A stretch of 64,000 bases of DNA. Source: Amphritea japonica ATCC BAA-1530. Lineage in GTDB: Bacteria > Pseudomonadota > Gammaproteobacteria > Pseudomonadales > Balneatricaceae. The stretch covers positions 3,666,693-3,730,692 of the forward strand of contig NZ_AP014545.1 of the NCBI RefSeq assembly GCF_016592435.1, written 5' to 3'. Below the pieces are notes generated by a model, which saw nothing but the letters and a program-made list of their open reading frames with translations, did not search any database and had not been told where the DNA came from. Shown here in pieces: positions 36,311 to 50,837 of this stretch; positions within the stretch are counted from its first letter, which is position 1; every line of letters begins with the position of its first letter. A program made the translations under genes and the position numbers.

Positions 36311-37537
36311 TTAAAAGCGATAGGGGAATTTTACTCCGAGAGAGAAGTCAGGAGCATCGGGGGTGAGGCCAATACCCAGAGTGGTTGACATTGATAGCTT
36401 ATCGCTCAAAGCATAAGTAACGCCGGCATTAAAGGTCGCCGCATTACCATCACTACCAAAGATATCTTTCCATTCACTTCCTTCCAGCCGCGTCTCACTT
36501 TTTTGACTGATTCTCTGTGAGACTGACAAACTCATACTCATCCGTTCATTCATCGCAAATGCCATTCCCAGACCGTAGAAAACAGAGTCACCTAAACGAA
36601 CATCCCCAGGCTGATCCCCTGAAGTAGAGCTAATATCATCAAAACTCCCATCTAGGTTATAGGTATAACCCACATTGGCAAACAGAATGGCGGGATCCGT
36701 CGTTTTTACAAAAGACAGACTATTGCTGATACTCCATAAACCACTTCCGGTAGGCAGCTCTTTGGGATAAGTAACTGTATCGGTGCCGCTAGCGTTGGTT
36801 ACTGACTTGGTGACTGTTGGTGTTCCATAAGGATGACTGCCGGTAGGAGCTTTAATACTCAGGTTCCAGACTATATCTGGCCTGCTAGCCGTTTCATTAA
36901 AGAGCTTATACGCAGACGTTAGAGTAATATCGCCTAAATCAGCTTCATCCACAGTGGCTTCAGCGCCAACACCATTTACATTGCGTTGAAACGATGTATT
37001 CCTGTAAACAAAGGGCACTGTGGCACCAATCTGCCACCGGTCGTTGACGTTATAGCGTCCCGTTGCATCGAAGGTATAAATATCTGCTGATATATCATCA
37101 ACCGAAATGTCACCCAAGAAGATAGCATCCAGCGCCAAAAAGCCTTCCAGCACGAGTTCCTTACGATCGTAATGGCTATAATTCATTCCCAGCTCTACGG
37201 TAAAACTATTACTGAAAAGCGCATGCTCCTCTTGCATTATATTATCAACACTGGAGCTGGGCGCGGCTGATTTCACTACTTCATTCTGAGCTGTTTGCTT
37301 CTGAGGTTCAGCTTGTATAGCTTGTCTGCCGCTCTCCAGCGAATAGAGCCGTTGCTCCATCTCTCTAAGTGTTTGCGCCTGTCGTTCATTAATTAGTTTT
37401 AATTGTTTAATTTCGAATTTTAGCTGCTCTCCGTCACTTACTGTCGCGGTTTCTTCAGCCAAGACGACCTGACATACCGCCAGACTTAACAGGCTTACGG
37501 CCATCCCTGACCGGCCCCAATGAGATCTGTAATCCAT
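36311..37537 (-). CDS. fapF: FapF-like outer-membrane exporter of functional amyloid
   Basis: A 408-residue exported protein. A signal peptide (~1-27, ending AVCQVVLA) is followed by a coiled coil at ~37-69 (EQLKFEIKQLKLINERQAQ), a linker, then a ~290-residue beta-barrel with alternating strands, ending in aromatic FPYRF as outer-membrane porins do. N-terminal coiled coil plus barrel is the layout of FapF, the trimeric channel that exports Fap amyloid subunits. Last gene of the A-F order. A strong GGGGGA ribosome site precedes the ATG. Without its neighbours it would be called a generic MetA-pathway-type porin. Confidence 0.8.
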   Translation of the reverse strand: MDYRSHWGRSGMAVSLLSLAVCQVVLAEETATVSDGEQLKFEIKQLKLINERQAQTLREMEQRLYSLESGRQAIQAEPQKQTAQNEVVKSAAPSSSVDNIMQEEHALFSNSFTVELGMNYSHYDRKELVLEGFLALDAIFLGDISVDDISADIYTFDATGRYNVNDRWQIGATVPFVYRNTSFQRNVNGVGAEATVDEADLGDITLTSAYKLFNETASRPDIVWNLSIKAPTGSHPYGTPTVTKSVTNASGTDTVTYPKELPTGSGLWSISNSLSFVKTTDPAILFANVGYTYNLDGSFDDISSTSGDQPGDVRLGDSVFYGLGMAFAMNERMSMSLSVSQRISQKSETRLEGSEWKDIFGSDGNAATFNAGVTYALSDKLSMSTTLGIGLTPDAPDFSLGVKFPYRF

Positions 37538-37633
37538 TTGTTTTCCCCCTTTCCCCCGAAAAGAGCAAAGCGATCCAACGGACCACTTTGCACATACCCA
37601 TAGTTAAAAGTAGCAGGTATTTAGCCTACGGCT

Positions 37634-38446
37634 CTATAAGCCCCTGAGATGATTCAAAGATCGGAGGACTCCATTGGGACGAAACTCCGATAACGACGAG
37701 CTTAGTTCGACAGTCAAACCGATACGATTAAGCACCTGATTTAAATCGCTGTTTAGCTGAGTGCTCTGGAGTATATTTCCGCCGGAAAACTGTGAGCGGG
37801 TAATTTGCTGCGACACCGAACCAAAATCAGGAATATCAACCTGATAACCAACACCTTCAGCATCTACAGAAACCTGGGTATTAACACCTTCATCACTCAG
37901 ATGACTGTGAGTTCCCGTATCACCTACCTCTATCAACCCTTCAGTATCAGGAACGATGTCAGAATCGGTCACCGTCCAATCGACAGCATTGTGGACACTA
38001 TTACTATCTCCGGCGACCTGAATGCTCTGCACTACCCCGGAGATATTTTCCAGAGCACCATTGTCCGACACATTATCTAAAGATGACTGTAGCACCTCTT
38101 CCGACGGCACTGACAAGCCAATATTTCGACTACGGTACATCGTCATATGCGGGCGGTAGCGATCACGACCAAAATCAAAATTGACACGCATCTCCATATT
38201 AAAGTCGCGCCCCCCCTGGCGTTGCCAGTCCGTACGCATACGTATACCAAAAAATGCTACTTTGCGACCATCGACAAATCGTCCTCGCATTGCGGCAAGT
38301 TCAACATCACTTACTACTCCTCCTTGTAAACCAAAAGGGCCTGTTTGTTGGGCCGCATTTGAATTATTTGGCAACAATAAAAACAAACTTACAATTGCCG
38401 ATCCTGCTGTTACTCCTATTCTTGTATTCCATTGACAGCTGTTCAT
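37634..38446 (-). CDS. fapE: FapE-like extracellular component of the amyloid system
   Basis: A 270-residue exported protein with a signal peptide (~1-32, ending NNSNA). Directly after it is VVSDVELAAMRGRFVDG (44-60), then a beta-rich region rich in Asn, Ser and Val with little similarity to known folds. Assigned FapE from position between fapD and fapF and similar size (Pseudomonas FapE is a small accessory protein found in fibrils). The motif DVELAAMRG also appears, in variant form, in FapA and FapD of this operon. GGGAGGAG gives an excellent ribosome site. Identification by sequence alone is weak. Confidence 0.65.
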   Translation of the reverse strand: MNSCQWNTRIGVTAGSAIVSLFLLLPNNSNAAQQTGPFGLQGGVVSDVELAAMRGRFVDGRKVAFFGIRMRTDWQRQGGRDFNMEMRVNFDFGRDRYRPHMTMYRSRNIGLSVPSEEVLQSSLDNVSDNGALENISGVVQSIQVAGDSNSVHNAVDWTVTDSDIVPDTEGLIEVGDTGTHSHLSDEGVNTQVSVDAEGVGYQVDIPDFGSVSQQITRSQFSGGNILQSTQLNSDLNQVLNRIGLTVELSSSLSEFRPNGVLRSLNHLRGL

Positions 38447-38470
38447 GACTTACTCCTCCCTTTCGGGAAG

Positions 38471-39190
38471 TTAAAACAGTTCGGCATGGCGAAAACCATG
38501 TTCCAGTAACTGCGCGTCACTCAGAGGTGCGAATGTATTGCTTAAGCTCCGGGCGGTTAGTTGACGCTGTGGATTAATCAAAACAGATGACTTATTGAAT
38601 CCACGCCCAATGACAGCAAAGACAATACCGTTCCAACTCGATAAAAAATCATCTATAGGCATGATTTTATTACCCAAAGCCGGATCAGCCAGATAGACAA
38701 GGTTCTCTTCGGTCTTCTTTAATACAACGAAGTGCTTATAACCTTTGAGATCCAGCAGAACAATGGTTGGTATCTTTATTCCTTGCAGAGTATCAGGTTC
38801 AACTTTATAACCCCGGCCACGCATACCCACGCGCTCCAGATAGTGTTTAATATTTAGTAGCGAAAATCCCTGTGCTCGAACTTGTTCAATATCACTAACG
38901 GCAAACAGACCATCCAGCATATCTTCTTCTGTCACTCGCAGGCCGTAGCCGTACCTGAGCACAGTAGCCAATGCCGCTGCGCCACAGCTAAAGTCAGTCT
39001 GCTGTTTTATAATATGCTGATAGCGTTGTTCACGCATGCTAATGACCGGCTTACTCAGGTTTGAGCCACCGGGAAGAACGTTAGCTAACTCAATCTGAGC
39101 GGCCTGTACAGGGAAGTTAATAAATAGCACCAGAACCAAAACGGCATCTGGAATCCTGGCGAAACTGCTAGTAATCTTACTAATCATCAT
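38471..39190 (-). CDS. fapD: FapD-like C39 family peptidase
   Basis: A 239-residue exported papain-like peptidase. A signal sequence or anchor (~13-30) is followed by the C39 domain: oxyanion Gln and nucleophile in QQTDFSCGAAALATVLRYGYG (Cys69; shown in part), His153 in KGYKHFVVLKK and Asp169 in YLADPALG. All three catalytic residues are present, so it is predicted active. FapD is required for fibril export in Pseudomonas, acting in the periplasm. The C-terminal tail PLSDAQLLEHGFRHAELF contains a variant of the leader-like motif in FapA and FapE. Start codon ATG-ATG, with no strong ribosome site. Confidence 0.85.
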   Translation of the reverse strand: MMISKITSSFARIPDAVLVLVLFINFPVQAAQIELANVLPGGSNLSKPVISMREQRYQHIIKQQTDFSCGAAALATVLRYGYGLRVTEEDMLDGLFAVSDIEQVRAQGFSLLNIKHYLERVGMRGRGYKVEPDTLQGIKIPTIVLLDLKGYKHFVVLKKTEENLVYLADPALGNKIMPIDDFLSSWNGIVFAVIGRGFNKSSVLINPQRQLTARSLSNTFAPLSDAQLLEHGFRHAELF

Positions 39191-39277
39191 AATAAGCCCA
39201 CTTATAACAGTCTAAAGCCAGGCTGATTTAACAGCCCGGCTCAGATCATCTCAGCAAAAGTCTATCTATCAGAACCT

Positions 39278-40591
39278 TCATTCACCCGAAGGAACCGTAA
39301 TAGACGTACTGTCTACCTTAGTCATAGCCAGACTATTATTTTGCAGATTACTGGTACCGGCCGTAATATTCACACCGATATTACCCTTCGCACCACGTAA
39401 TGCATTATCACCCATTGCTGCGTTGTTCTCATGCCGCACGTAACGGCTAACCAAGTGCTCAACACTACCGGTAAAGGTTCCACTAAGAGATTGCGTACCT
39501 GCTTCAGAGAAACCAATACGGCCTCTCTCTCTGCTCGGACCAATACGGCCTCTTTCACCATGAGCGGAAACAACACCTCTTTCTCCTGAACCTGAAATAG
39601 TGCCACTTTCAGTGAATTCAAAGCGACCTGGATCGTCATTATCACCGCCGGGTGAAACATTATCGTTATCAAAATCAAGATGCCCCCAGTAAGAGGTACC
39701 GCCCCCCTGCTCATGGCCATCACCATTAATCCAAACTTCTGGATAAACATCATTGCTCTGGCTTGAAGTGCCTGAATACGTTGCAGGACCATTACTACCA
39801 CTGTAGCGAGCAGCGCTATTAACACCACTGTAGCTAGCACCTGAATTTGTACCGCTATAACCTCCGTTACCAGAACCGTTATAACTACCGCCCATAGCAC
39901 CATTCATAGAGACCTGAGTGGTAATTATTTCATGGGTTTCTTCAGGCAGGTTATGAACCTGATTATTTTCGGTTTCCTGAGCAACCGATACCGTCGCCTC
40001 ACCCATAGAGCCTGAAGCAACTGAGCCGGCAAAAGAGTTTGCCTGGACGTTACTACTACCCGCCGCAATATTTACTCCGATATTACCCCGGGCATTCTCT
40101 AGCGCATTGCCGCTAAAGTCAGCGGTATTGATAGTCCCCCAGTTGAAAGCGACATTATCTTCCGCATTCTGATCCATAAAGATTTCAGCATCGGCGGAGC
40201 CAAATACAAACCCTGCATCAGCGGCAGCCAACGCTGCGGCATTACTCTGTACGTTATGATCACCGGCACTGATGTTCACACCAATATTACCTTTAGCACC
40301 CTTAAGCGCGTTACCGTCAAGTGTTGCAGAGTTATCCACACGGTCATTTATGGTCAGGTTATTATCACTATCCTGTTCCTGATCAACCACTGCCATACCC
40401 AGAGAATCAACACGAATACGGCCTGTGATCGCAACATCACCTGAATATTCAACACTTTTTTTCACATGGACATGCTTACTTAGGTGGGCCCCAGAGCCGC
40501 CACGAGAGTTGCCTTCTGCAAGGGCGAAACCTGAAAAACTAAGTGCAGCAACTGCGACGGCCAACGGCGCCATTTTAAATACCTGTTTCAT
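39278..40591 (-). CDS. fapC: FapC-like major functional amyloid subunit
   Basis: A 437-residue secreted protein. Signal peptide 1-25 (ending GFALA). Three imperfect repeats: residues ~93-122 (GNIGVNISAGDHNVQSNAAA), ~161-190 (GNIGVNIAAGSSNVQANSFA) and ~395-424 (GNIGVNITAGTSNLQNNSLA). Linker 1 is ~38 residues; linker 2 is ~204 residues and contains a Tyr/Gly/Ser-rich stretch (231-280) and ERGRIG-type repeats (337-360). Repeat-linker-repeat-long linker-repeat is the FapC plan, and GVNxxAGxxNxQxN is the Fap amyloid signature. No Cys is present, so the C-terminal CxxC I recall for Pseudomonas FapC is absent. AGGAGAAGG is a strong ribosome site. Confidence 0.85.
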   Translation of the reverse strand: MKQVFKMAPLAVAVAALSFSGFALAEGNSRGGSGAHLSKHVHVKKSVEYSGDVAITGRIRVDSLGMAVVDQEQDSDNNLTINDRVDNSATLDGNALKGAKGNIGVNISAGDHNVQSNAAALAAADAGFVFGSADAEIFMDQNAEDNVAFNWGTINTADFSGNALENARGNIGVNIAAGSSNVQANSFAGSVASGSMGEATVSVAQETENNQVHNLPEETHEIITTQVSMNGAMGGSYNGSGNGGYSGTNSGASYSGVNSAARYSGSNGPATYSGTSSQSNDVYPEVWINGDGHEQGGGTSYWGHLDFDNDNVSPGGDNDDPGRFEFTESGTISGSGERGVVSAHGERGRIGPSRERGRIGFSEAGTQSLSGTFTGSVEHLVSRYVRHENNAAMGDNALRGAKGNIGVNITAGTSNLQNNSLAMTKVDSTSITVPSGE

Positions 40592-40636
40592 GGTCCTTCT
40601 CCTTTTTATTCTTCAAGCACCGGGGTATATTCCCGA

Positions 40637-41275
40637 TTATTTTTTTGATCCCAGTGAAACACTGAGACCAAAACTGTTACTTGTTGCATTTCCTGAACCT
40701 GCCAATTGGTTGATCTGTACCACACCACTGGTTCCATTAAAGGCACCCTCACCGATCGATACTTGTCGATGTTGTCCATTACTATCACTGGTAAGCTGGC
40801 TGGCAGATTGACCGGTTACCGTGAGACTTAACTCACTTTCAGAAACCGCAACCCCGCCTAAAGCAAAACCGATAGCAACGTCATTGAGTTGTGCATTACC
40901 GGAACCACTTGCATGGTTAATAGAGATAAGGCCAGAAGCATTGGAAAATGCATTGCCCTCAATCAGACTGACAGCTGAATAAAGCCCCCCCCCGGGAAGG
41001 CCAACATGTTGTGAAGCTTTGATCTGTGCCGTTGCACCCAAACCCTGACCGATACTTACAGCAAGAGCACGAGCATTAAGCTGAGCATTAGAATCCCCTG
41101 CGACAATATTGACGCCGATAATTCCGCGACTACTTTCCAAAGCAAAATCACTAATCACTGCCTGGTTACTGTATTCAAATTGTTCAACCGCAAGTGGCGT
41201 TTCGGCAGCAGCACTAGCGGCCATCAGCAGCATCAATAAACAATTAACAGATTGAGTAGAGAGAGAGCCTTTCAT
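40637..41275 (-). CDS. fapB: FapB-like minor amyloid subunit (nucleator)
   Basis: A 212-residue exported protein: signal peptide ~1-24 (ending ASAAA). Three repeats at ~43-72 (RGIIGVNIVAGDSNAQLN), ~106-136 (SGLISINHASGSGNAQLN) and ~176-206 (SGVVQINQLAGSGNATSN). These are the FapC-type motif in degenerate form with short linkers, as expected for FapB, the proposed nucleator. Only one Cys, in the signal peptide. It begins two bases after the fapA stop, and a GGAGGGG ribosome site lies inside the fapA end, so the two are coupled. Confidence 0.82.
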   Translation of the reverse strand: MKGSLSTQSVNCLLMLLMAASAAAETPLAVEQFEYSNQAVISDFALESSRGIIGVNIVAGDSNAQLNARALAVSIGQGLGATAQIKASQHVGLPGGGLYSAVSLIEGNAFSNASGLISINHASGSGNAQLNDVAIGFALGGVAVSESELSLTVTGQSASQLTSDSNGQHRQVSIGEGAFNGTSGVVQINQLAGSGNATSNSFGLSVSLGSKK

Positions 41276-41277
41276 AA

Positions 41278-41610
41278 TCAGCGCCCCTCCAAATAGACTT
41301 CGACAGTTACAACTGAATTGCTGTAACCCTGAGCACTTTGAGCTCCTTTCTTAACACCCCCCTCATCCCAGAGAATAATGCCCAATTCCATCTGGGCCGA
41401 CGGAATCGCATGATCAATTCCTTGTCCGCGAACAGCTCCGAGCTGATCCTCGTCCAGCACTGCTACTGCAATGCCTGAATCAGATGCGAATAACTGATCC
41501 CCCACCCCTTGATCAGCCATCAGCACAGGCGCCCACCACAATCCAGCAAGTGATAGCAAACTAACCGCTAAAACTTTTTTAATACTGGTTGGGGTTAACC
41601 AATTGATCAT
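41278..41610 (-). CDS. fapA: FapA-like periplasmic accessory protein
   Basis: A 110-residue exported protein, first gene of the fap operon. Signal peptide ~1-32 (SLLSLAGLWWAPVLMA). Then VAVLDEDQLGAVRGQGID (49-66), a leader-like motif shared with FapE. The C-terminal half is short and beta-rich. Assigned FapA (chaperone/regulator of fibril composition in Pseudomonas) mainly by position and size. The ATG at 41610 has AGGTGA five bases upstream; the GTG at 41619 is less likely because it overlaps that ribosome site. Confidence 0.65.
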   Translation of the reverse strand: MINWLTPTSIKKVLAVSLLSLAGLWWAPVLMADQGVGDQLFASDSGIAVAVLDEDQLGAVRGQGIDHAIPSAQMELGIILWDEGGVKKGAQSAQGYSNSVVTVEVYLEGR

Positions 41611-41650
41611 TCTGATCACCTGATAAGTGGACTAAGTTCACTTACAACAC

Positions 41651-41666
41651 AGCAAGAACAGAACCA
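41651..41666 (-). promoter_or_regulatory. Sigma-54 (-24/-12) promoter of the fap operon
   Basis: On the minus strand TGGTTCTGTTCTTGCT: the -24 TGG and -12 TTGCT elements have exactly the canonical spacing (TGG, eight bases, TTGC), preceded by a T as in the consensus YTGG. Transcription would start near 41640, ~30 bases before the fapA ATG. A sigma-54 activator gene lies just upstream on the same strand. The middle bases deviate from CACG, so activity is likely but not certain. Confidence 0.7.
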
Positions 41667-41878
41667 AAAAAACTATCTGTCTGATTTACATAGGATTAAT
41701 CATCTTCGGCACGATACTCTACTAGCGAGAGAGGCTGTAACTGTTTCAGGAAGTTAACACCAACTTGACAACAGCAATAAAAAAGACTTATGTATCAGTT
41801 AGTTATATAGCTACACATAAGTGTAAAGGCAGTATTACAATCTTAACGCAAGCACACTTTTCGGTACCGGTCAGACAT

Positions 41879-41906
41879 AAAAAAACCGCCAATAGCGGTT
41901 TTTTTA
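41879..41906. terminator. Terminator between the sigma-54 regulator and fapA
   Basis: AAAAAACCGCCAATAGCGG then T-run, 33 bases after the regulator stop. It isolates the regulator transcript from the fap promoter. The rest of 41667-41878, where activator sites would lie, shows no obvious repeated dyad. Confidence 0.88.
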
Positions 41907-41938
41907 TACTTAAAAGACAAGACATTAGCAGAGATTCA

Positions 41939-43306
41939 TTACGATAAAGATAAGTGATACTTTTCGATGATTCGATACAATGTCACTCTGGATACACCCA
42001 ACACCTTGGCTGTCTGTGTCATATTATTATGGCAGTATCTTATGGCACTGATAACCGCCTCTTTCTCCGCCTTTTCTCGTGCCTCTTCCAATGAGATAAC
42101 TGGCCGATCATCATCTGTACTGTAGCTCTGCAGGTCCAGGTCATCCGGCTTAATCAGCCGCCCATCGCACATAACAATTGCCCGGCGTATCCGATTAATA
42201 AGCTCCCTGACATTACCTGGCCAGCTGTATCGTTCCATCACCTGTAGAGATGTCTGAGAGAAACCTTTAAGTTTTGCCTGCCCATCTGAAACAAAGCGGT
42301 CAAAGAAGAACTGGGCCATCAACTGAGTATCACCTTCTCTTTCTCGCAACGGTGGTGGCTGCAACTGAAGAACATTCAATCGATACAAGAGATCCTCACG
42401 AAATCGACCACTTTTAACGGCTGCATCAAGATCAACATTCGTTGCTGCAACCACTCTGACATCCACAGGAATTTCTGTATTGCCACCCAACCGTTGAATT
42501 ACATTTTCCTGCAAGAATCGCAGCAGATTAACCTGCATATCAAAAGGCAAGTCTCCTATTTCATCAAGAAAAAGAGTGCCTCCGGCTGCCGCCTCGATCT
42601 GGCCACATTTCTGCGAATTAGCGCCCGTAAATGCACCTTTTTCATAGCCAAATAATTCAGACTGTATGAGATTTTCAGGGATAGCACCGCAATTAACAGC
42701 AATGAATGGCTTGTCTGCACGGCCGGAGCGCTCATGGACAGCCCTCGCGATCAGCTCTTTTCCGGTTCCGCTTTCTCCATATATCAAAACAGGCGCATCG
42801 ACACTGGCAACCTTACGAATCGAGCCAAACAATTTAATCATCGATGGACTACTCCCCACCATCTCATACTCATCGTAGCCTTGTTCCAAGTCATCTAAGC
42901 ATAGGCTTGCCATTCCATGAGCATGGCCTAGTGTCGACAGCAGACGCATATAGTCTACCTCTGAGAGAGGCAGCGTATAATAATCATGACAAGTTTCACG
43001 AATCAATTTACAAAAAGCTCGCTCATGTAAACACTCAGTACTAGTGATAATCACCCATTCGATGGTGCGATAATCAGTCAAAAGAGCCTCTACTTCGCGA
43101 AGCTGACCGGGTTCAACACTGACAAGCTGAATTAAACCAACACTATACTTTTGATTATCAATAATGCTTCTAGCTTCCTGCAGGCACTCTACTTCTTCAA
43201 TATCCCAGCCCTGCAGAGAGATAGTGGCTTTGCTAATAGAGTCAATCTTATTATTTGTCCGTACATATAAAACTGGACGACGTAATTCCACCATTGGAAT
43301 ATTCAC
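41939..43306 (-). CDS. Sigma-54-dependent activator with degenerate receiver, VpsR/FleQ-like; likely fap regulator
   Basis: A ~455-residue enhancer-binding protein. The N-terminal ~140 residues have the size of a receiver domain but lack the acidic pocket and phospho-Asp, so control by phosphorylation is unlikely. AAA+ domain: Walker [17 protein letters not shown], the sigma-54 loop GAFTGA, Walker [18 protein letters not shown] and RREREGD-type sensor ([11 protein letters not shown]). C-terminal Fis helix-turn-helix [20 protein letters not shown]. Start: GTG at 43306 with AGGGGG five bases upstream fits best; a GTG at 43312 and an ATG at 43294 are alternatives. Degenerate-receiver relatives (VpsR, FleQ) respond to c-di-GMP, which is an inference here. 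Confidence 0.8.
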
Positions 43307-43312
43307 ACACAC

Positions 43313-49460: not shown

Positions 49461-50837
49461 TTATTTGTAATCTTTCTTATCCAGCTCATACTTTTTCATT
49501 TTGTCATAGAGCGTCTTACGGGGAAGCCCCAAAGTTTCCTGCGTAAGCTTCAACGAGCCACTGTTGCGGGACAGCTCCTCTTCCAGGACCAGTTTTTCAA
49601 ACTGCTCAACCTGCTCTGGCAAGGTCATGCACTTACCTGGCGAAGAACCGTTCTGCTCCCCTACGGAGAAATCATAACTCGGCCCCAGCAACACATAGCG
49701 CTCAGCGATATTCCGAAGCTCCCTGACATTACCGGGCCAGTGGTGAGCAACCAGCGCCCGCAACTTTTCGGCGCTCAGCTGTGGCACCTCTTTCTGATAC
49801 TGGGCCGATGCGATCAATGCAAAATGCTGAAACAGCATCGGAATATCTTCCCGCCGTTCTCTGAGCGGTGGAATCTCAAGACTCACAACGTTAAGACGAT
49901 AATACAGATCTTCCCGGTATTCGCCCAGCTCACTCAACTCGCGCAGGTTCACTTTAGTTGCAGCCACCACCCGAAGGTCCAGCGCGATTAACTCATTAGA
50001 GCCTAATCGCTCTATCGCCCTCTCCTCAAGCACCCGTAACAGTTTAACCTGTAACGACGGAGACATACTCTCGATCTCATCCAGGAACAAAGTGCCGCCA
50101 TTGGCATGCTCGAACTTACCAATGCGACGACTTTTAGCATCAGTAAAAGCCCCCTTTTCATGGCCAAACAGCTCGCTCTCAATCAGATGCTCTGGCACCG
50201 CGCCACAGTTTATCGCCACAAAGTTCTTATCCCGGCGGTTACTGTGCTCATGAATATAGCGAGCTACCAGATCCTTACCCGAGCCGGTTTCAGCCTGAAT
50301 CAGAATATCCGCAGGCGTGTCAGCAATGTGCTGAATCATCGCCCTAAGCTGTTGAATACGTAAAGAATTACCAATAATCCGGGGGCCTATACCCCCTTGC
50401 GCCTCAAGCGCTTTACGCAAGTGTCTGTTTTCAAGGGTCAGACGACGCTTCTCAGCGGCACGACGGACAACGTCATTGAGTAACTCAGAGGAAAAAGGCT
50501 TCTCAATAAAGTCGTAAGCACCATCTCGCATAGCCCCCACAGCCATAGAGATATCACCATGCCCGGTTATCAGAATAACGGGCAAATCCGCATCAATATT
50601 GACGATCCTTTGCATCAATTCAAGCCCATCAATACCCGGCATATTGATATCACTGACCACAACCCCGGGCCAGTCCCGGTCAAGAAGGCTCAAGGCTTTT
50701 TCAGCACTCTCTGCAGCCACAACGTCATAGCCGGCTAGCTCCAGCGTCTGCCCAACGGCAATCCGGATATGTTTCTCATCATCAACTAACAAGATTTGAT
50801 GCGGCTGCTTCTCTTCCGCTGTTATTTCAGCATTCAT
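49461..50837 (-). CDS. dctD: C4-dicarboxylate response regulator DctD
   Basis: A 458-residue sigma-54 activator. Receiver domain ~14-125 with ILLVDDEKHIRIAVGQTL, phospho-Asp in VVSDINMPGIDGLELM and Thr/Lys in LITGHGD...EKPFSS. AAA+ domain ~155-390: Walker A variant AETGSGKDLVARYIHEHS, sigma-54 loop GAFTDA (GAFTGA with Gly to Asp), Walker [14 protein letters not shown]-terminal Fis-type helix LKLTQETLGLPRKTLYDKMK. The GAFTDA loop is also seen in DctD-type proteins. Thirty bases after dctB, same strand. It should activate the dctP promoter at 47512-47527. Confidence 0.95.
   Translation of the reverse strand: MNAEITAEEKQPHQILLVDDEKHIRIAVGQTLELAGYDVVAAESAEKALSLLDRDWPGVVVSDINMPGIDGLELMQRIVNIDADLPVILITGHGDISMAVGAMRDGAYDFIEKPFSSELLNDVVRRAAEKRRLTLENRHLRKALEAQGGIGPRIIGNSLRIQQLRAMIQHIADTPADILIQAETGSGKDLVARYIHEHSNRRDKNFVAINCGAVPEHLIESELFGHEKGAFTDAKSRRIGKFEHANGGTLFLDEIESMSPSLQVKLLRVLEERAIERLGSNELIALDLRVVAATKVNLRELSELGEYREDLYYRLNVVSLEIPPLRERREDIPMLFQHFALIASAQYQKEVPQLSAEKLRALVAHHWPGNVRELRNIAERYVLLGPSYDFSVGEQNGSSPGKCMTLPEQVEQFEKLVLEEELSRNSGSLKLTQETLGLPRKTLYDKMKKYELDKKDYK

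Follow-up and report, generated by a model that had tools for sequence, protein, structure and literature searches.

The DNA analysed here (the window, a stretch of 64,000 nucleotides from Amphritea japonica ATCC BAA-1530, positions 3,666,693 to 3,730,692 of contig NZ_AP014545.1) carries on its minus strand, between positions 36311 and 41619, a complete and apparently intact fapABCDEF operon for a functional amyloid, preceded in the direction of transcription by the gene of a sigma-54 activator. For the explanation of the locus as a whole, in which the activator switches on the operon and the peptidase FapD cuts the accessory protein FapE, we estimate a probability of roughly 0.88, while its operon and activator part is close to certain. 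The seven open reading frames (ORFs) and the features associated with them are as follows:

36311-37537, minus strand: fapF, outer-membrane exporter with a coiled coil and a beta barrel (NCBIfam FapF, PDB 5O65)
37634-38446, minus strand: fapE, accessory protein and predicted FapD substrate (NCBIfam FapE, alignment of 33 proteins from the window and 32 relatives, model)
38279-38314, minus strand: leader-like motif of FapE, VSDVELAAMRGR, residues 45-56, predicted cleavage region
38471-39190, minus strand: fapD, C39-family cysteine peptidase with a signal-like N-terminus (by eye)
39278-40591, minus strand: fapC, major amyloid subunit with three repeats
40637-41275, minus strand: fapB, minor amyloid subunit (NCBIfam FapB and repeats)
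41278-41619, minus strand: fapA, small accessory protein (position and homologues in relatives)
41422-41457, minus strand: weaker copy of the motif in FapA, LDEDQLGAVRGQ, residues 55-66 counted from GTG, 9.6 bits
41651-41666, minus strand: candidate sigma-54 -24/-12 promoter, TGGTTCTGTTCTTGCT, upstream of fapA
41877-41907, minus strand: terminator-like perfect inverted repeat with 13-nucleotide arms, between the activator gene and fapA
41939-43312, minus strand: BrfA-type activator with VpsR domain, sigma-54 AAA+ domain and Fis-type helix-turn-helix (Pfam)

For the activator ORF both GTG 43312 and GTG 43306 are possible starts, while for fapA a start at ATG 41610, which lies behind an AGGTGA box, appears more likely by eye than GTG 41619.

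Products and relatives of the fap operon

An earlier note on this DNA had read the six genes as Fap genes in the order A-B-C-D-E-F and had proposed a search against Fap families. The positions and strand that it gave for the seven ORFs were confirmed. Five of the six products were recognised by NCBIfam models, namely FapF (E 8.7e-122, score 406.9 for a cut-off of 700), FapD (E 2.5e-85, 285.3 for 330), FapC (E 1.3e-52, 179.5 for 195), FapB (E 1.7e-27, 96.3 for 190) and FapE (E 1.3e-25, 90.1 for 250), and the proposed order holds, with fapA assigned by position and by homologues in relatives. Two results count against the assignment: all five scores fall short of the curated cut-offs, and FapA was without any NCBIfam match. 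The low scores are the reason why we call the operon divergent, as the earlier note had done. The cut-offs look narrow, with none of 69 genomes with a FapF match exceeding the FapF cut-off and six of 11 with a FapE match exceeding that for FapE. The overall match to Fap, as measured by the E-values of FapF, FapD and FapC, is far beyond chance. The opinion that A and E rest mainly on position remains valid for FapA, for which phmmer found homologues at the equivalent position in 12 of the 15 stretches from relatives, and no longer applies to FapE, given its NCBIfam match.

Comparison with solved structures led to the same families. The 408-residue FapF, correctly taken for the exporter, matched the FapF crystal structure PDB 5O65 in a sequence search (E 8.2e-90), and its residues 63-68 (RLYSLE) fit by eye the R-h-x-x-h-E pattern described as the FapF trimer motif (PMC6173795); it is predicted to form a trimeric barrel with a periplasmic coiled coil. 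FapC contains three repeat cores of the GNIGVNxxAGxxNxQxN type (residues 101, 169 and 403), a linker of about 200 residues rich in glycine and serine between repeats 2 and 3, and no cysteine. By sequence it matched solved FapC fibrils (PDB 9NQD, E 2.6e-14; 9U4U, E 3.8e-14). When its AlphaFold model (mean predicted local distance difference test, pLDDT, 64; block means 82-89 across the repeat regions) was submitted to Foldseek, a check of the kind suggested beforehand, 9U4U was the sole match at E <= 0.001 (E 4.7e-6). In FapB two cores fit the repeat pattern (residues 51 and 115) and a third, looser core was seen by eye in the translation, so that the repeats described for both subunits have been located. 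The catalytic residues of FapD are likewise in place (Cys69, His153 and Asp169 in C39 context), and this protein matched the double-glycine peptidase PDB 6MPZ (E 2.2e-10).

The operon shares with Pseudomonas fapABCDEF (UK4, PAO1) and that of other Proteobacteria the gene order, the three-repeat FapC, the C39 peptidase FapD, the coiled-coil motif of FapF and the presence of FapE, but differs in its divergent sequences and in the long glycine- and serine-rich linker and lack of cysteine of FapC. Fap systems are known from Beta-, Gamma- and Deltaproteobacteria, fapA is often lost and FapC linkers are highly variable (Dueholm 2013). The altered linkers, which the earlier note had put forward as a novel feature, were rejected as such because this variability had already been described. 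The novelty of the operon is low; a known amyloid system, whose protein fibres hold bacterial biofilms together, gains one member, in Amphritea.

Amphritea has been placed in the Oceanospirillales. With the FapF model, matches at E <= 1e-3 were obtained in 23 of 95 genomes, including 10 of the 17 of the genus, the source genome among them, and the best of three named relatives, an Amphritea metagenome-assembled genome, encodes a FapF that is 94% identical. A first set of 15 stretches retrieved from relatives contained 13 fap loci, these 13 stretches carrying fapB to fapF as well as an activator homologue; L038 and L040 gave no FapB or FapC match. A search of open-licence papers for amyloid in Amphritea found no literature, the sole joint match being unrelated. 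In L042, one of these 13 and from another genome of the genus, the fap locus is split into many frames, by sequencing error or decay, in a single-contig assembly rated 78% complete. L070 has fapA to fapE in a tandem second copy with a single fapF and one activator.

Activator and promoter

The product of the gene next to fapA has the features of a BrfA-type activator, being VpsR-like with a sigma-54 AAA+ domain, a Fis-type helix-turn-helix and a position adjacent to fap, and is this genome's only VpsR-domain match at E <= 0.01. Its description as a sigma-54 activator adjoining fap is upheld by these Pfam domains. In the first set of relatives each of the 13 fap loci had a homologue as its neighbour, ahead of fapA in eleven of them and on the far side of fapF in L033 and L041, and the activators beside six presumed Pseudomonas fap loci (L063-L068, the genus being deduced from FapE scores above the NCBIfam cut-off) were 44-46% identical to that of the window. 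A VpsR domain was found in five of the six fap- or FapF-linked activators scanned (L063 has it, L051 does not). An activator profile matched at E<1e-90 in 41 of the 45 loci with FapB/C described below; it also accepts other NtrC-type proteins (for example the one at window position 49461), so that 41 is not a count of BrfA-type genes.

In Pseudomonas fluorescens PF07, brfA adjoins fap, a -24/-12 promoter precedes fapA, and mutation of rpoN or brfA lowers the transcription of fap (PMC9207406); BrfA has been reported to sense cyclic di-GMP (c-di-GMP) (PMC13101488). In view of its domains, the adjacency in relatives and these reports, the activator of the window is most likely a known kind of fap partner. 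The reading of it as private to this operon was rejected on the strength of the relatives' homologues, the 44-46% identity to Pseudomonas-type activators and the BrfA papers. The likeness to PF07, which runs through the presumed Pseudomonas activators rather than through PF07's own BrfA sequence or domains, consists in a sigma-54 activator adjoining fap, whereas the activator lies upstream on the same strand here and BrfA downstream and reversed in PF07.

The candidate -24/-12 site at 41666-41651 is located 33 nucleotides before the fapA ORF and scored 19.1 of 22 (p 0.014) on a scale of our own built from the consensus, with p taken against 500 single-base shuffles; by its sequence it would be the promoter expected of a BrfA-type activator. 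Sites with p < 0.05 were present in 14 of 18 stretches in which a fapA-labelled ORF was taken as the first gene and in one of five presumed Pseudomonas stretches with fapB as the first gene. Among the inverted repeats before fapA in six stretches, other than terminator-like ones, none was common beyond the sister stretch L034.

A leader-like motif in FapE and FapA

LSxxELxxx is the canonical consensus of double-glycine leaders, and a pattern of this type occurs in FapE. Parallel reading of the two small proteins revealed, behind the signal peptide, a stretch common to both, which reads VSDVELAAMRGR in FapE and LDEDQLGAVRGQ in FapA. Its distribution was examined in 92 FapD loci, a set of 45 loci with FapB/C and 47 others that was partly chosen to include the latter; L042 (broken copy) as well as L040, L056 and L075 (no FapD match) were left out of the 96 stretches available. 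The 47 are defined by fewer than two FapB/C matches and include L046 and L084, which have a recognisable FapE. A motif resembling LSDxELAxMRG[RK] was present near the N-terminus of FapE in all 45 FapB/C loci, with RG in 43, and the FapE-labelled ORF that carries it followed FapD in each. Across the 33 aligned FapE sequences, in which the 32 relatives are 19-97% identical to the FapE of the window, R54 and G55 were the sole invariant residues before position 66. In many loci that lack FapB/C, LxxxELxxxRGG occurs in small proteins encoded next to FapD-like genes, and 30 of the 47 loci with fewer than two FapB/C matches had a motif ORF within 4.2 kb.

Forty motif windows (38 distinct) taken from 41 FapE-labelled ORFs served to train a scoring matrix. 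Within the FapB/C loci, where the first 400 residues of FapE and 150 of the other classes were scanned, at least 10 bits were reached by 46 of 46 FapE (a count that includes the training set) and 14 of 22 FapA, compared with 1 of 93 FapB- or FapC-labelled ORFs, 2 of 44 FapF, a single activator out of 46 and 4 of 3,343 remaining ORFs. In another scan 7 of 2,980 shuffled ORFs attained this score. The top scores over 4,465 other ORFs belonged mostly to FapA and to small FapD-adjacent ORFs of loci without FapB/C, in many of which the motif ended in RGG. In 40 new FapD loci absent from training, from which FapD and eight recognisable FapE had been removed, at least 10 bits were found in 16 of 746 ORFs at most 1.5 kb from FapD and in 2 of 1,668 more than 3 kb away (Fisher p 4.8e-7; 4.8e-7 to 2.6e-4 over the five thresholds tried). 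These ORF sets include spurious frames, and the loci are phylogenetically non-independent, L092 being present as two identical copies and some genomes contributing several loci. A motif profile, which includes the window's own FapE and FapA sequences, picked out fapE (E 1e-6) and fapA (E 2.3e-4) in the whole genome and nothing else better than 0.07.

In the model of FapE (pLDDT 70.7) residues 47-53 form a short helix, followed by a flexible RGR and a folded beta domain from about residue 61, a predicted layout that would suit a leader; a fold search with this model returned no match (best E 0.038, template modelling scores 0.14/0.11). FapE also ends in a conserved ALxxLRGL, similar to the core of the N-terminal motif. 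In FapA of five presumed Pseudomonas loci the corresponding ORFs have ELSDxD followed by SSG, ASG or TSG and are without RG, which FapA of the window retains.

FapE as candidate substrate of FapD

FapD is reported to be periplasmic, and its active cysteine is essential for FapC secretion (Rouse 2017, PMC5557850). The same paper found no canonical C39 sequence in Fap proteins and, by mass spectrometry, no peptides from the first ~70 FapE residues, and it proposes FapE as the likeliest FapD substrate. The target or role of FapD was called unknown in papers of 2017 and 2018 (PMC5557850, PMC6173795), and no later paper naming the target was found among the open-licence papers listed by the searches. 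A candidate recognition motif and site for FapD are new here. Because the FapE motif resembles a double-glycine leader, FapD is predicted to cut FapE at this motif, which we regard as probable; by alignment the cut would fall after RG or RG[RK].

FapD shares sequence family and catalytic residues with the cytoplasmic C39 double-glycine peptidases of the PCAT1 type, and the FapE motif resembles a double-glycine leader. FapD differs in its reported periplasmic location (PMC5557850) and in having no Pfam match to an ABC transporter domain, and in canonical double-glycine leaders the cut follows the second residue of a GG or GA pair (PMC10233263), whereas the predicted FapE site is RG[RK]. A PDB search with a profile of 21 mixed windows (A3) gave 12 matches, with leaders of CtA (E 0.054 and 0.66), NHLP (0.093) and bacteriocin type (E 0.83) among them, but a repetitive designed protein accounted for the two best matches, and further ones were unrelated. 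The direct likeness to leader peptides of solved structure, seen with this one of four profiles, is thus weak. The CtA leader segment scored 18.7 bits on the FapE matrix, a value reached by 5 of 1,112,209 11-mers from ORFs that carry neither a FapE nor a FapA label; this comparison was not blind, CtA having surfaced in the A3 search. When ten FapD-adjacent proteins were compared with NCBIfam in search of a leader family, no useful match resulted, and Pfam Bacteriocin_IIc matched 21 of 274 genomes, none above the cut-off. One of the sub-cut-off matches (L134, E 0.039) is a small protein encoded about 565 nucleotides upstream of what we interpret as the ORF of a FapD-like C39 peptidase.

Several observations weigh against cleavage of FapE at the motif. 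All 33 aligned FapE have RG[RK] rather than the canonical C39 GG or GA, RGG being confined to other FapD-adjacent proteins, and two FapE loci deviate even from RG (L089 with HGK, L091 with TGK). Neither the FapE-only window profiles (A4 and A6) nor the RGG-only profile (A5) found a known leader peptide in the PDB. The motif helix of the FapE model is of low confidence (block means 48-49, lower still at residues 53-56), the rule used for motif ORFs found none in 17 of the 47 FapD loci that have fewer than two FapB/C matches, and published mass spectrometry found peptides throughout FapA to FapD (Rouse 2017, PMC5557850). FapD itself reached at least 10 bits in 9 of 46 cases through an internal stretch, so that the matrix is not perfectly specific. 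This stretch, for example VSDPELVxxQGF and in the window VSDIEQVRAQGF, may reflect chance, a fold signature or self-mimicry.

Alternatively, the motif may have a structural role or dock to FapF or FapD, with FapD acting on another protein, for example on the FapF linker, an explanation that we consider possible but distinctly less probable than cleavage of FapE. It is favoured by the lack of a canonical GG in the FapE motif, by the failure of the FapE-only profiles to retrieve known leaders and, as far as FapF is concerned, by the suggestion that FapF may be cleaved near GG motifs (Rouse 2017, PMC5557850). What argues for a leader instead is the invariance of RG in the 33 aligned FapE, the recurrence of the motif, often as RGG, in FapD-adjacent ORFs that are not recognisable as FapE, and its enrichment near FapD in untrained loci; a target in the FapF linker is further disfavoured by the absence of the motif from 42 of 44 FapF.

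Two other explanations are very improbable. FapD and FapF also match the FilB and FilC models of the putative FilA/FilB/FilC pilus system (E 1.9e-28 and 2.5e-18), and it is common for FapD loci to have fewer than two FapB/C matches (47 of 92, in a set partly chosen for such loci), as would be expected if the locus were a Fil-type cassette, or another FapD/FapF cassette, whose cargo differs. The Fap models outscore those of Fil by a wide margin, fapB and fapC with Fap repeats are present, and the matches of FapC to solved FapC in effect refute this explanation unless the repeat proteins form no amyloid, which makes it extremely improbable. That the activator controls something else, such as the neighbouring transporter genes, and adjoins fap by chance is somewhat less remote but still very unlikely; the terminator-like repeat before fapA, from which we conclude that the activator is probably transcribed separately, would agree with it, but it conflicts with the homologues in 13 of 13 loci, the sole VpsR-domain match of the genome and the control of fap by BrfA reported from P. 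fluorescens mutants (PMC9207406).

Family identities, gene order, the promoter-like site and the motif are backed by comparison, and we infer c-di-GMP control, protein locations, FapE cleavage and fibril formation in the following scheme. The BrfA-type activator and sigma-54 RNA polymerase would switch on fapA to fapF, whose products by eye carry signal-like N-termini, probably in response to c-di-GMP. Periplasmic FapD would most likely cut FapE after the double-glycine-like leader (VSDVELAAMRG-R), and FapA may be another protein that it binds or cuts, while FapC, with FapB, would thread through the trimeric FapF barrel and stack into extracellular cross-beta fibrils. If right, FapE cleavage would explain why FapC secretion needs FapD and would connect Fap with leader processing in the style of bacteriocins, and the conserved, precisely placed motif makes the substrate question directly testable at a single site. 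Since peptides were detected throughout FapA, this protein may escape cutting in Pseudomonas; the lack of RG in Pseudomonas FapA would fit this published absence of processing, and we speculate that FapA acts as a pseudo-substrate.

With odds only slightly better than even, FapD and its relatives may represent periplasmic double-glycine-type peptidases, paired with FapF-type barrels, that read an LSDxELxxxRG[R/K/G] leader located behind the Sec signal of FapE, of FapA and of many proteins of neighbouring genes that are otherwise unrelated. Fap would then be one branch of a wider two-step export family (Sec, then leader), and Pseudomonas FapA possibly an uncleavable version of the substrate. 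The FilA/FilB/FilC system differs from Fap in its cargo, and around the FilB-type genes retrieved there were fewer than two FapB/C matches. ORFs upstream of some of these genes, which we take to be FilA-like, carry a D-x-x-L-S-x-V/I-T-G-Q type motif; among L104-L123, which are FilB-type and other late loci, such an ORF was located upstream in six of 20 (L104, L105, L107, L108, L109 and L123), the pattern having been written after examples were seen. In ten further loci (L060, L062, L074, L077, L080, L093 and L098-L101) motif ORFs occur on both sides of the FapD-like gene, and these stretches have a FapF match and fewer than two FapB/C matches, as apparent sister systems with other cargo.

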